A DNA stretch of 64,000 nucleotides from positions 1,543,501 through 1,607,500 of the forward strand of contig NZ_CP016757.1 in NCBI RefSeq assembly GCF_001701045.1, in the 5' to 3' direction. The notes under the pieces were generated by a model. The model ran no database searches. It worked only from the letters and a program-made list of their open reading frames with translations, and had not been told where the DNA came from. The position numbers were made by a program, and so were the translations under genes. Positions 40,525 through 51,970 of this stretch are shown piece by piece; position 1 is the first letter of the stretch, and each line of letters begins with the position of its first letter. Origin of the DNA: Cloacibacillus porcorum. Its GTDB lineage: Bacteria > Synergistota > Synergistia > Synergistales > Synergistaceae.

Positions 40525-40599
40525 GGGCGGGTAGCTCAGCGGGAGAGCATCTGCCTTACACGCAGAGGGTCGTAGGTTCGAAACCTATCCCGCCCACCA
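40525..40599 (+). tRNA. tRNA-Val (anticodon TAC)
   Basis: Cloverleaf with acceptor GGGCGGG/CCCGCCC, anticodon loop CTTACAC, normal T-loop TTCGAAA and encoded CCA. Confidence 0.96.
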
Positions 40600-40613
40600 T
40601 ATGACAACAAAGT

Positions 40614-40690
<77 letters not shown>

Positions 40691-40715
40691 CTTTAAATAT
40701 TTTCGCCACTGAGAT

Positions 40716-40791
<76 letters not shown>

Positions 40792-40809
40792 TAAGTAACG
40801 AGAGTAGAG

Positions 40810-40884
40810 GCGGAAGTAGCTCAGGGGTAGAGCACAACCTTGCCAAGGTTGGGGTCGCGGGTCCGAATCCCGTCTTCCGCTCCA
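40810..40884 (+). tRNA. tRNA-Gly (anticodon GCC), copy 1, with C at T-loop position 55
   Basis: Acceptor GCGGAAG/CTTCCGC, anticodon loop TTGCCAA, encoded CCA. The T-loop reads TCCGAAT (40862-40868) instead of TTCGAAT in the second copy, so the near-universal U55 is C. It may be a weakened or decaying copy. Confidence 0.9.
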
Positions 40885-40923
40885 AATTATGTCAGCAGGC
40901 ATGACGCATCAGAGCAGCAAAGT

Positions 40924-41000
<77 letters not shown>

Positions 41001-41023
41001 CTTTAAAGATTCGCCGCTGAGAT

Positions 41024-41099
<76 letters not shown>

Positions 41100-41125
41100 C
41101 TAAAAAATAAATATTGAGTAACAAT

Positions 41126-41200
41126 GCGGAAGTAGCTCAGGGGTAGAGCACAACCTTGCCAAGGTTGGGGTCGCGGGTTCGAATCCCGTCTTCCGCTCCA
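41126..41200 (+). tRNA. tRNA-Gly (anticodon GCC), copy 2
   Basis: Normal T-loop TTCGAAT and encoded CCA; followed at once by TTTTTTT, which may end transcription of the array. Confidence 0.96.
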
Positions 41201-47090: not shown

Positions 47091-47963
47091 TTATTCAATA
47101 AAGAGACTTCGATATTGCATCGGAGCCTTTTTCAATTTTATCTGTATCCTGTCGTTATTATAATACCTTATATATTCGTCTATGGCATCTTTGGCCTCCT
47201 CGTAGTTCTCCCATTTTACTCGGTTGACGAGTTCTGATTTAATGTGACTAAAGAAGTTTTCTGCACATGCATTATCCAAACAATTTCCTTTCCTTGACAT
47301 TGAGACCTTGAGTCCGTATCTTTGTGTCAGGTTGAAATATGCATGGCTTGTATATTGAAACCCCTGGTCGCTGTGGAGGATTGGTCCATCAGCGACCACC
47401 TTATTATTATTTTCAAATGCTTTCTTCAATGTATCGGTTACTAACTTAATATTATTATTACGACTGATTTGATATCCCTGTATGGAATTATCAAAGAGAT
47501 CTTTTATCATGGAGAGGAATATATTACCCTTTTTTGTTCGTATATATGTGATATCAGTAACCAGTTTCTGGTTTGGTCTGTCGGAACGAAATTCTCTGTT
47601 CAGGATATTCTCATAGCTGTGGATATTTCCTGACATCACTTTAAACTTTTTCTTTTTTCTTATTTCCGCTTGAAGTCCCGCTTTTTTCATAACACGCCTT
47701 ACCCTCTTATTGTTTACATGAATGCCAATGAAGTTGTTGAGCCACAGAGTCATTCGCCTGTACCCATAAGTGTTTTTGTTGATATTCTGTCCCGTTCTTA
47801 TTGCTTCTATGAGAGGACCGTCTTTATCTTTCATTCCACGCCGCTTTAGCCAACTGTAGTATGCGGAGCGTGATACGGACAAAAATCTACACATTCCACA
47901 GACAGAATGTTTTGTTGAAAATTCAAAAATGATCCTGTATTTAATATTTCTTTCTATCACCAC
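47091..47963 (-). CDS. IS3-family transposase OrfB (DDE integrase domain)
   Basis: The 290-residue protein has a helical HTH_21-like N-terminus and an rve integrase core. Catalytic Asp residues are in VTDITY and HSDQGFQYT and the Glu in CAENFFSHIKSE, in the IS3 DDE arrangement. It is normally made as an OrfAB fusion by -1 frameshifting in the overlap; on its own the start would be GTG. Confidence 0.93.
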   Translation of the reverse strand: MVIERNIKYRIIFEFSTKHSVCGMCRFLSVSRSAYYSWLKRRGMKDKDGPLIEAIRTGQNINKNTYGYRRMTLWLNNFIGIHVNNKRVRRVMKKAGLQAEIRKKKKFKVMSGNIHSYENILNREFRSDRPNQKLVTDITYIRTKKGNIFLSMIKDLFDNSIQGYQISRNNNIKLVTDTLKKAFENNNKVVADGPILHSDQGFQYTSHAYFNLTQRYGLKVSMSRKGNCLDNACAENFFSHIKSELVNRVKWENYEEAKDAIDEYIRYYNNDRIQIKLKKAPMQYRSLFIE

Positions 47964-48400
47964 CTTTGCAGCTCTAAGGCTTTTTTTAATACGTCGACCT
48001 GCATTTCCAGCTCTTTAATCTTTTCTATGCTATTTGTAACTTCCAATTTCTTATCTGGACAGTCTTGTTTTGAACTAGAAATATCCCCTTGTTCGATAAA
48101 TTCCTTACACCATCGTCTTAAAAGAGAGGGACTTGAAATGTTAAAAGATGAGGTAACATCTACCATAGTACGTCCCTCTTCTAAATGAGCCGAAACAGCT
48201 TCAAGTTTTACAGCCTTGCTGTAGGTTCTTTTTTTCCTTGTATCATCCAGTAAGTCCTTCTGTCCGCTCTTATATAAAGATATCCATGTTTTAACAGAAT
48301 CAGGACTAACACCAAGTTCTTCAGCAATCCGCCTTCGTGGAATTCCCTGTTTGTGCATCTCAATTGCTCTTATTCTTTCTTCTGTTTTACGTTTACGCAT
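47957..48400 (-). CDS. IS3-family transposase OrfA (DNA-binding)
   Basis: The 147-residue protein has two helix-turn-helix units (IPRRRIAEELGVSPDSVKTWI and TMVDVTSSFNISSPSLLRRW) and a C-terminal leucine-zipper-like segment (IEKIKELEMQVDVLKKALEL). Near the end the codons TTA AAA AAA (A7 at 47981-47987) make an A-AAA-AAA slippery site; a -1 slip joins the frame of OrfB, giving the active OrfAB transposase. Slippage is inferred from family behaviour. The ATG follows AGGGGGATC. Confidence 0.9.
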   Translation of the reverse strand: MRKRKTEERIRAIEMHKQGIPRRRIAEELGVSPDSVKTWISLYKSGQKDLLDDTRKKRTYSKAVKLEAVSAHLEEGRTMVDVTSSFNISSPSLLRRWCKEFIEQGDISSSKQDCPDKKLEVTNSIEKIKELEMQVDVLKKALELQRW

Positions 48401-48482: not shown

Positions 48483-48862
48483 TTTGAGGGAGCTCCCCGC
48501 GAAGCGGGGTGAGGGAGAGTTGACCTTAGGTTCTCCCGTGGCCTTTGCCGCGGGCTCTGTATGGCGCGGGAACCGCGCCATACAGAGCAACACTCCTTCC
48601 GTCTCGCCGCAAAAGCGGCGGCGATCCACCTTCCTCATAGAGGAAGGCTTTAAGAAAAAACTTCCGTTTATCATCGATAGGGTAAAAGCTAAACAGCAAT
48701 TTATCTGTTTTCCCACCCGAAGGAAATCGGCGTTTAGAAGTGCGAGTTGCTAAATAAAATGGTGGTTCCGATACCGGAGCCGTATTAGCATACGGCGAGG
48801 ATTCGGAACCACCGTTTTATGACGCAAATCGTGCTTATAAACGCCGATTTAGCTTTTGACCC
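48483..48862. repeat. Composite hairpin-rich intergenic element, copy 2 (right part)
   Basis: The gap holds no gene; an 89-codon frame here is a product of the repeats. Perfect hairpins follow one another: CCCCGC-GAA-GCGGGG (48495-48509), a 15-bp stem GCTCTGTATGGCGCG/CGCGCCATACAGAGC (48554-48588), CCTTCCTC-ATA-GAGGAAGG (48629-48647), and GGTGGTTCCGA/TCGGAACCACC (48761-48813) with an inner GCCGTAT/ATACGGC. An end-repeat is at 48697-48736 and a shortened inverted one at about 48836-48862. With copy B at 46962 it looks like one element interrupted by the IS. Confidence 0.7.
48697..48736 (+). repeat. Dispersed end-repeat, copy C
   Basis: CAATTTATCTGTTTTCCCA, then CCCGAAGGAAATCGGCG and TTTA. Preceded by GGTAAAAGCTAAACAG, which recurs inverted near 48845. 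Confidence 0.8.
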
Positions 48863-48880: not shown

Positions 48881-48909
48881 TTGCGCCGCTGATATTTCTG
48901 TGATATCAT
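48881..48909 (+). promoter_or_regulatory. Candidate promoter of the trp leader, with a palindrome
   Basis: TTGCGC (48881-48886) and TATCAT (48904-48909) are 17 nt apart. TGATAT-7 nt-ATATCA overlaps the -10 and could be an operator, though attenuation alone would explain control. Confidence 0.45.
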
Positions 48910-48946
48910 CCCTTCACGAAGGACAGAGAGATTAAGGAGAATGTTT

Positions 48947-49009
48947 ATGCCCATTTGCCGTTTTTACAGCATAAATACGAATATAAAGGGATGGTGGCGC
49001 GGCTTTTAG
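48947..49009 (+). CDS. trp operon leader peptide
   Basis: A 20-codon frame from ATG 48947 to TAG 49007-49009 follows AAGGAG at 7 nt. Codons 16 and 17 are tandem TGG (Trp-Trp; 48992-48997), then Arg-Gly-Phe-stop. The Trp codons lie at the 5' side of a hairpin GTGG-c-GCGGCT / AGCTGC-t-CCAC (48994-49018), which covers the end of the frame. This is the arrangement of a ribosome-stalling leader: scarce Trp-tRNA would stall the ribosome on the TGG pair and break this hairpin. Downstream lie terminators and trpB. Confidence 0.85.
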   Translation: MPICRFYSINTNIKGWWRGF

Positions 49010-49048
49010 CTGCTCCACGGTTGCTTCGTGTAAATTCGAGGGACCTGG

Positions 49049-49076
49049 AGAGACATCCGGGTCTCTTTTGTTTTTT
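49049..49076 (+). terminator. Attenuator terminator of the trp leader
   Basis: AGAGAC (49049-49054), loop ATCCGG, GTCTCT (49061-49066), then TTTGTTTTTT. The TGGAG just before it (49046-49050) can pair instead with CTCCA (49013-49017, region 2), which would be freed if the leader ribosome stalls at the Trp codons; this is the antiterminator candidate. Confidence 0.78.
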
Positions 49077-49080
49077 GAAG

Positions 49081-49119
49081 AAAACGAAAGAGGTTGGAAG
49101 AGAGCCTCTTTCGTTTTTT
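49081..49119 (+). terminator. Second strong terminator in the trp leader
   Basis: A 13-bp perfect stem, AAAACGAAAGAGG (49081-49093) with CCTCTTTCGTTTT (49105-49117), plus T's. It lies between the attenuator and trpB; no antiterminator for it was seen. Confidence 0.85.
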
Positions 49120-49165
49120 ATAGAGAAGAGAAATCAGATAAGAGAAGATCAGGAGGAGTTTTATC

Positions 49166-50365
49166 ATGAGAGAAGAGATAATGGCGGGTTTTCCCAACGG
49201 CGCGATGTATGGAAGTTTCGGCGGCTCTTATATTCCCAGGGAGCTGGAGCCGGTGATGGCGGAGATCGCGCGCGAATATGAGCGATGCCGCGCGGACGGC
49301 ACCTTCAAAGAGGAGTACCTGCGTCTGCTGAAGGAATATGTCGGCCGTCCCTCGGCGCTCACCGAATGCCTCAACCTCTCGAAAGAGACGGGAGGCGTGC
49401 GTATCTTTCTCAAACGCGAGGACTTGAATCACACGGGAGCGCATAAGATAAATAACTGCATCGGACAGGCGCTGCTTGCCAGACGTATGGGCAAGAAGAG
49501 GCTCATCGCGGAGACGGGGGCGGGGATGCACGGCGTCGCCACGGCGACGGTCGCCGCCCTTATGGGCATGGAATGCGACATCTATATGGGAGCGGTGGAT
49601 ATCGCGCGCCAGGCGCCGAATGTGCTGCGTATGAAGGCGCTCGGCGCGAACGTGGTGTCGGTGGAGGATGGCCAAAAGACGCTTAAGGAGGCGGTAGACG
49701 CCGCGCTTGCCGCGCTCTGCGCCGACACCTCGCTCTTTTATCTCATCGGCTCGGCGGTCGGGCCCCACCCTTACCCGACGATGGTGCAGGATTTTCAGCG
49801 CATAATCGGCGACGAGGCCCGCGCGCAGATGCTTGAGCGCGAAGGCCGCCTGCCGGACGCCGTCGTCGCCTGTGTCGGCGGCGGCAGCAACGCTATCGGC
49901 GCCTTCACGGCCTTTATCGGCGATAAGGATGTGCGCCTTATAGGAGTGGAACCCGCGGGACGCGGCCTCACGTACGGCGGCCACGCGGCGACCCTCACGA
50001 TGGGTGAGCCCGGCGTTCTCCACGGGTTCAGAAGTTATCTGCTCACCGACGGAGCGGGCGAGCCCGCCGAGGTCTATTCGATCGCGGCGGGGCTGGATTA
50101 TCCCTCGGTTGGGCCGGCGCACGCCGACCTCAAGGTGAGCGGCCGCGGGGAGTATATCTGCGCCGGCGACGAAGAGGCGCTCGAGGCCTTCAAACTGCTC
50201 TGCCGCACTGAGGGGATCATCCCCGCGCTGGAGAGCTCTCACGCCCTTGCCGGCGCGATGAGGACGGCGAAGGAGATGAAGCCCGGCGATATCGTGATCG
50301 TGAACCTTTCCGGGCGCGGCGACAAGGATATGGAGACGATCGCGAAGCTCGGCATTATCGAATGA
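49166..50365 (+). CDS. trpB: Tryptophan synthase beta chain
   Basis: The 399-residue PLP enzyme joins indole and serine to tryptophan. Signature motifs: [17 protein letters not shown] at the start, the PLP Lys94 in [37 protein letters not shown] and the C-terminal SSHALAGAM. It is the classical TrpB1 type by length. AGGAGGAG sits 7 nt before the ATG. There is no trpA or other trp gene nearby, so it could salvage indole. A terminator follows. Confidence 0.95.
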
Positions 50366-50536: not shown

Positions 50537-51970
50537 TTACATCCTGCACATTTCGAGGGAGTCTTTCACTCCGAGCTGGGCGAGATGTTTTTGCAGCCAG
50601 GGGAAGTCCTGAGATAATTTTTTATGGAAGATGTCGGCGAATTCACCGAATCTTCCGCTCCGCAGCAGGTTGAGGCTCTCTTTTGAGAGGTATTTTGACC
50701 TCTCTCCGCCTCCTAGGTCATGCGAATGTGAGAGCAGCGGGAAGGTCCAGGCGGACAATTCATATAAATTGGCGTAGACCGTCCTGACATACGCGAGGCG
50801 GCTTTTTTCGCTGATGAAATTTAGACATGCAGGGAGGATGTTGGAGGGTCTTTTGTTCTCCAATAACCCCTCCAGCCTTTGTATAAAGGCGTACCTGTCG
50901 GCGGGTTCTGCGTTTGCCAGGGTATCGCGCATCACTTCACCGCATGTCAGGCAGACGAGATGCAGCCCCTGCAAAGAGAGCGACATGTTACGCATTATTT
51001 CGGGAGATAACTTTTCCCCTTTCAGCGGCTCTTCATTCATTGCTGAGACCTGCGTCCCCCTGCCGTTATAAGTTTTGGTGACGGAGATCTCGTTAAGCAG
51101 CCTTATCGTGCGGCGCATCGTCATCACCGATACGCCGTAATTTTGCGCCAGCGCCGACGCGGAGGGCAGGAAGGAGCCCTCCGGATATATCCCCTCGTTG
51201 ATTTTTTGTATCAGACTGGCGGCGGCGGTATAACATTTCTGTGTTCTGATCCGCCAGATCTCCCACTGAAAGGGGATCTGCGGCGGCAGACCGGCGGCTT
51301 CGCCAAGTGAATACGCCTCTGCGTTTGAAGCTAAAATGATCCGGCTGTAGCATTCATAAAATATTACCGCTATGTTACGGGTATCTCCGCTCTTTATGCA
51401 GGAGATTATCCGCAAGAGGCCGGCTCTGAGAAAATCTGAGTCAGACGTCACCCTGGACCCGCTGCCCCAGAGATATGGAAAACGTATATAGCGTACAGTG
51501 TCCCAGAACAGGTTGAGGAGCAGGTCGTTTTTTATCGGACGGAGTATCGTCCAGAAGGAGACGGTGAGCAGCCATAATGGGTCAGCCTCTTTTCTTGATA
51601 CGCAGTCCTCTAAAAAGACGATATCGTCTTTGCCCATCATCCTGATCCCGGCGTTCATAAACCTCTGCCAGATAAACTCAACGGAGCCGTAAAGGTCTGA
51701 AAATCCCGCCTTTCTCGCGAGGAGATAATCCTTCAAGAGTGGGTTTTTCTTATGACCGGCGTCATAGATTACCTTTGCCCTGCGTCCGGGAGAGAGCGAA
51801 ATATAGCCTTCGTTGCGTATTTTCAGAAGCGCTTTACGGACGGTCTGCGGCGAGCAGGCAAACTGCCGTCCGGTAGTACCTGCCGAAGGCAAAGATTCAT
51901 ATAGGTTATAGCAGCCAAAGGTTATCCTTGACTTGAAGTATTCATAAATAAGATAGCCTCGGCTTTGCAT
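50537..51970 (-). CDS. GntR-type regulator with two winged-helix domains
   Basis: The 477-residue protein has a GntR-like winged helix at about residues 1-70 (LPSAGTTGRQFACSPQTVRKALLKIRNEGYISLSPGRRAKV) and a second at about 240-310 (GSFLPSASALAQNYGVSVMTMRRTIRLLNEI), each followed by an alpha-helical region of about 165 residues. It looks like an internal duplication of a one-domain regulator. Ligand and targets are unknown. It is divergent from the hybrid kinase gene, with an AT-rich gap of 250 nt containing a perfect palindrome at 52091-52104. Confidence 0.75.
   Translation of the reverse strand: MQSRGYLIYEYFKSRITFGCYNLYESLPSAGTTGRQFACSPQTVRKALLKIRNEGYISLSPGRRAKVIYDAGHKKNPLLKDYLLARKAGFSDLYGSVEFIWQRFMNAGIRMMGKDDIVFLEDCVSRKEADPLWLLTVSFWTILRPIKNDLLLNLFWDTVRYIRFPYLWGSGSRVTSDSDFLRAGLLRIISCIKSGDTRNIAVIFYECYSRIILASNAEAYSLGEAAGLPPQIPFQWEIWRIRTQKCYTAAASLIQKINEGIYPEGSFLPSASALAQNYGVSVMTMRRTIRLLNEISVTKTYNGRGTQVSAMNEEPLKGEKLSPEIMRNMSLSLQGLHLVCLTCGEVMRDTLANAEPADRYAFIQRLEGLLENKRPSNILPACLNFISEKSRLAYVRTVYANLYELSAWTFPLLSHSHDLGGGERSKYLSKESLNLLRSGRFGEFADIFHKKLSQDFPWLQKHLAQLGVKDSLEMCRM

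Follow-up and report, generated by a model that had tools for sequence, protein, structure and literature searches.

The described systems closest to the leader analyzed in the present study, which precedes a lone trpB gene in Cloacibacillus porcorum (Synergistota), are the trp and his attenuators of E. coli and its relatives. In the his leader, only the EF hairpin is a terminator, and the CD hairpin has no U-tract. The stems AB, CD and EF and the alternative DE of the his operon leader of E. coli/Salmonella (PMC10989985) find their likeness here in a six-segment ladder, whose relayed pairings would allow a stalled ribosome to disarm the last hairpin (EF in his). However, the Synergistota equivalents of CD and EF both carry U-tracts, and the codons are those for Trp. 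Thus, the last hairpin is not the sole terminator candidate, as 3:4 (herein T1) has a U-tract and terminator shape in addition to 5:6 (T2), while the his-type alternation of 1:2, 3:4 and 5:6 with 2:3 and 4:5 is found, clear excess pairing being confined to adjacent segments. With E. coli trpL (RF00513), the leader shares a short peptide that has its tandem Trp codons close to the end, and the pairings 1:2, 2:3 and 3:4, whereas 5:6 and 4:5 belong to the Synergistota leader, and a lone trpB rather than the trp operon would be controlled. By analogy, the logic would be of the trp type at T1 and of the his type at T2. No leader is known to us whose ladder has terminators at both hairpins, and none was found in the literature searched.

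Outside Proteobacteria, classical trp attenuators with double or triple UGG codons are reported in the Actinobacteria Corynebacterium and Streptomyces; unlike the present leader, these lie upstream of trp operons or trpS, and the parts of that report describing them mention no second terminator (PMC1262725). An earlier note on this DNA had held such control to be well known in Proteobacteria and little described in this phylum. No earlier report of trp attenuation in Synergistota was found in the literature searched, and the main text of a structured-RNA survey that included one Synergistetes genome, Thermovirga lienii, makes no mention of trp (PMC6429828); use outside Proteobacteria as such is already known from the Actinobacteria. 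Two terminators in series have also been described, in the gammaproteobacterial rimP leader (PMC2965389), which has no Trp leader peptide, and in the B. clausii metE leader (as described in PMC3641672), where tandem riboswitches act as two independent sensors, in contrast to the one ribosome proposed here. The "trpB motif" is described as a riboswitch candidate of other phyla, namely Firmicutes and Fusobacteria (PMC11109978). The present leader would carry trp attenuation of the classical kind into a deep phylum and place it on a lone trpB instead of an operon.

Anatomy of the trpB leader

The window, that is, the whole stretch of 64,000 nt that was analyzed, comprises positions 1,543,501-1,607,500 of the 3.585 Mb single-contig genome. 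The following features were assigned (energies in kcal/mol, standard 37 C parameters; coevolution as assessed across 23 genera, see below):

48881-48909 (+): predicted sigma-70-like promoter, TTGCGC-17 bp-TATCAT, from sequence and same-place matches in relatives
48934-48939 (+): Shine-Dalgarno AAGGAG of the leader peptide, 7 nt 5' of ATG 48947
48947-49009 (+): leader peptide gene, encoding MPICRFYSINTNIKGWWRGF and a stop, from sequence and relatives
48994-49018 (+): 1:2 pause hairpin covering the Trp and stop codons, from folding and coevolution
49013-49050 (+): 2:3 antiterminator, CTCCA 49013-49017 with TGGAG 49046-49050 plus inner pairs, -18.3 kcal/mol, and coevolution
49038-49075 (+): T1 (3:4), predicted terminator hairpin 49038-49067 with a U-rich tract to 49075, from folding and coevolution
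49062-49093 (+): proposed 4:5 relay helix, 49062-49075 (3' arm of T1 with its U-tract) paired to 49080-49093 (5' arm of T2), from complementarity and coevolution
49080-49119 (+): T2 (5:6), second predicted terminator with a U-tract to 49119, from folding and coevolution
49166-50365 (+): trpB, stand-alone tryptophan synthase beta subunit, 399 aa, TIGR00263, 568 bits (cut-off 392)

The peptide has 20 codons, two of which are the tandem TGG at 48992-48997, and ends at TAG 49007-49009. An alternative in-frame ATG at 48941 is just 1 nt from the Shine-Dalgarno sequence, and in the nearest relative (L002) the leader begins at the ATG corresponding to 48947. The predicted promoter ahead of the leader is conserved, since a promoter-like site (at least 8 of 12 matches) stands at the equivalent place in 35 of 42 relatives against a shuffle expectation of 2.1. 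When the same genome was scanned by pattern for other leaders that have Trp codons and end in TAG, five matches were obtained, with the right anatomy at the trpB locus only.

The stretch 48930-49130 folds at -78 kcal/mol, compared with -49.9 +/- 4.1 for dinucleotide shuffles (z -6.9). The T1 hairpin has 12 bp (-20.0 kcal/mol, shuffle z -3.7), and bases 49046-49050 are common to T1 and 2:3, making the two mutually exclusive. T2 has a perfect 13-bp core in a 17-bp stem within 49080-49118 (-22.1 kcal/mol, shuffle z -6.7). The 4:5 helix has 14 bp in the window genome, three of which are G-U. The leader peptide with tandem Trp codons, the hairpin overlapping them, the competing CTCCA/TGGAG pairing, the terminator closing an E. 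coli-type attenuator and the very strong second terminator before trpB that the earlier note had described are all present at these positions. Its "two-stage block" was right as far as it went and missed the link between T1 and T2 through a further alternative pairing; likewise, trpB does lie downstream, and its stand-alone nature, distinct from a trpDCFBA operon, had gone unseen.

Conservation and coevolution across Synergistota

Among 188 Synergistota genomes, some of whose assemblies are incomplete, 45 genes were orthologous to the window trpB (E <= 1e-150). A leader that ends in two to four Trp codons in tandem, a short way ahead of the stop, precedes 44 of these, including one (L056) whose leader frame has no early stop in the assembly and which was entered by hand. 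The sole gene without a leader (L071) is an operon trpB adjoining trpA, a position found for none of the 44 leader-bearing genes. Judged by sequence, T1 with its U-tract is present in all 44 leaders, and T2 is present in 39. The earlier note had named as evidence against an attenuator the disappearance, in close relatives, of the paired TGG codons or of the competing helix; when the relatives were examined for it, the arrangement proved to be retained at 44/45 orthologous loci, a recurrence beyond chance. The conservation of the peptide, the pause hairpin, the antiterminator and T1 across the phylum strongly supports that note's reading of a ribosome-mediated trp attenuator. A scan of genome contigs yielded mostly ordinary trpB genes that came from other phyla and were 55-61% identical; relatives fit for the comparison were few. 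The five leaders without T2 (L006 and L008 to L011) belong to three genera of one family, that of the window; these T1-only relatives provide a natural absence of the second terminator that is useful for comparison.

MAFFT aligned the divergent leaders poorly, and the comparison was therefore made segment by segment. For all 15 segment pairs in 23 genera, native pairs were compared with pairs swapped between genera, a null that retains the terminator layout and asks whether 4:5 exceeds what two serial terminators give. Clear excess pairing was observed in adjacent segments only (1:2, z -8.4; 2:3, -3.1; 3:4, -11.0; 4:5, -4.9; 5:6, -13.2), and the ten non-adjacent pairs had |z| of no more than about 2, the highest being 3:6 (z -2.0); the genera are not fully independent samples, and one folding program served both to delimit the regions and to score them. 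At the level of sequence, the anatomy is evident, and so are its conservation and the coevolution of all five neighbouring pairings.

The native 4:5 pairing was -14.7 kcal/mol against -12.3 when swapped, a gap of 2.4, and the 4:5 excess held under permutation inside GC strata (p 5e-5). The excess was -0.7 kcal/mol (p 0.22) for the stems alone and -2.4 (p 3.5e-4) when the tails outside the terminator stems were included; because it comes mainly through the tails, 4:5 is more than T2 resembling T1. The 3:6 control gave an excess of -1.0 (p 0.07), and the paired difference between 4:5 and 3:6 had p 0.04. In genus g37, the stem lengths shift together, with CCC/GGG in L052 and CCCC/GGGG in L059. 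With eight family representatives, 4:5 was weaker (z -2.6, p 0.014) and 2:3 was not significant (p 0.09), and several genera (L003, L005, L068, L070) had no 4:5 excess. In other words, the comparative support for the relay is good, if not overwhelming.

A proposed relay and its rivals

Herein, we propose, with a probability of roughly two in three, that a ribosome-mediated attenuator senses charged tRNA-Trp and governs the stand-alone trpB through two coupled predicted terminators, a reading based on folding and comparative evidence. We infer that T1 and T2 terminate transcription, that ribosome stalling is in control and that 4:5 disarms T2 in time. When Trp is ample, the ribosome would reach the stop codon and cover segment 2, so that T1 forms and RNA polymerase stops, and polymerase leaking past T1 would be halted at T2. 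When Trp is short, the ribosome would come to a halt at the Trp codons and occupy segment 1, leaving 2:3 to form in place of T1; the freed segment 4, comprising the T1 3' arm and U-tract, would then capture segment 5 before segment 6 is made, T2 would be disarmed too, and trpB would be transcribed. TrpB would then make Trp from serine and indole, the latter probably scavenged in species without trpA. The leader is thus read as a six-segment ladder in which the stalling of one ribosome acts directly on T1 and, by relay, on T2, disarming both. That this is a phylum-wide double lock, with one stalled ribosome opening two serial terminators to guard an indole-salvage TrpB, we consider somewhat more probable than its opposite; if true, it would combine a very low leak with a single cooperative release. 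If the 4:5 relay works, these leaders would be natural serial terminators under one sensor, in which the leak is lowered and inducibility is kept.

The timing of these steps was modelled as equilibrium pairing at increasing transcript lengths. With a ribosome placed at the Trp codons of L001, the occupancies of 2:3 and 4:5 were 0.63 and 0.90 when segment 5 was out and 0.88 and 0.93 when half of segment 6 was out, 4:5 being favoured from the emergence of segment 5 up to completion of the T2 3' arm. Once T2 was complete, the starved state collapsed back to T1 and T2, and the relay therefore depends on 4:5 forming first; in the model, the open state is a kinetic one. At the T1 U-tract, the equilibrium prefers T1 over 2:3 in every species modelled, and therefore 2:3, too, must take effect through its earlier formation, which is likewise held for the antiterminator of the E. 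coli trp leader. In the Trp-replete state of L001, the 4:5 occupancy was also high before T2 was complete, so the calculation separates the two states poorly, and in L012, L023 and L060, 4:5 was hardly favoured under starvation. What the timing model supports is the feasibility of the relay, and only that.

A rival explanation is that the attenuator acts at T1 only, with T2 an independent back-up that 4:5 does not release. T1 with 1:2 and 2:3 is already a complete classical attenuator, five species manage without T2, and T2 exceeds 4:5 in stability throughout the species modelled; a separate T2 might reduce the leak or end transcripts that come from upstream or are not translated, and would pay for this with weaker expression on induction. 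However, a terminator of about -15 to -34 kcal/mol standing unconditionally between promoter and trpB would shut the gene off under Trp shortage as well, and the 4:5 complementarity exceeds both the segment swaps and the 3:6 control, so that we regard this explanation as unlikely, if a real contender. An overlapping explanation is that 4:5 is a by-product of two typical serial terminators, each with A-rich sequence before, a GC stem and a U-tract after, or that T2 was copied from T1. The high between-genus background (-12.3 kcal/mol) and the slight 3:6 excess are as expected from it, and yet the native 4:5 remains ahead of a null that keeps the terminator layout, mainly through tails and not stems, and the stem lengths in g37 change in pairs. 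A mere copy of T1 was rejected as insufficient by the stems-only and 3:6 controls, and the by-product account as a whole appears improbable to us.

A sensor other than the translating ribosome, whether a T-box, a metabolite riboswitch or an RNA-binding protein, might be suggested by the T-box that precedes the trpDCFBA operon of the same genome and by the "trpB motif" candidate described above. Against it, a search of the window with Rfam gave tRNAs only at gathering, with neither Trp_leader (RF00513) nor T-box (RF00230) at the trpB leader, and no relevant family matched the leader at E up to 10; moreover, conservation centres on the translated peptide ending in Trp codons and the pause hairpin over them. 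The T-box and protein-binding readings were rejected because of this absence of a match and the conservation in the peptide, and any such sensor would be very improbable.

Two trpB paralogues and the surrounding DNA

The window genome has a second trpB, 54% identical to the first, which adjoins the genome's only trpA away from the leader-bearing gene, within an operon trpDCFBA whose genes were named from translations and the trpA/trpB matches. Before this operon lies a full-length T-box (RF00230; L040 7834-8073, minus strand; E 2e-16), which scores 74.4 bits against an Rfam gathering score of 93 and whose specifier we read as UGG. Like the trpB leader, this T-box would read the charging of tRNA-Trp, whereas it binds uncharged tRNA directly, has no leader peptide and controls the other trpB paralogue. 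Thus, the same signal might be read in one cell by a T-box and by a ribosome-read leader, making a direct comparison possible.

Leader-bearing trpB and trpA are at separate places in every genome having both, and in eleven genomes of at least 95% completeness (G005, G008, G020, G021, G026, G078, G079, G080, G084, G093 and G154) the leader-bearing trpB is present while trpA and trpD are both absent. Because none of the 44 leader-bearing genes lies beside trpA and these near-complete genomes have neither trpA nor trpD, the leader-bearing trpB probably salvages indole; indole salvage has been reported in gut Bifidobacterium (PMC11085991). The window genome has the full trpDCFBA, and the leader-bearing trpB would therefore be supplementary there. 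Where trpA is missing, the presence of a Trp-starvation switch ahead of trpB suggests that the cell depends on indole made by neighbouring microbes. A further genome has trpA fragments only (G033:C12:137119-137386), an apparent decay of the trp pathway in which the leader-bearing trpB is retained.

Several other elements surround the locus. Directly upstream of the trpB leader region is an IS3-family transposase pair (47091-48400, minus strand). A large palindromic repeat with 48-nt arms, 83% complementary, occupies 48720-48857 just 5' of the promoter; this MITE- or REP-like element recurs as about 50 partial copies in other parts of the genome. Facing trpB, the gene at 50537-51970 (minus strand) encodes a protein with two GntR-type DNA-binding stretches, at about residues 13-69 and 249-310. 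In addition, a tRNA array at 40525-41200 contains an Asp-Phe-Gly set twice in a row.
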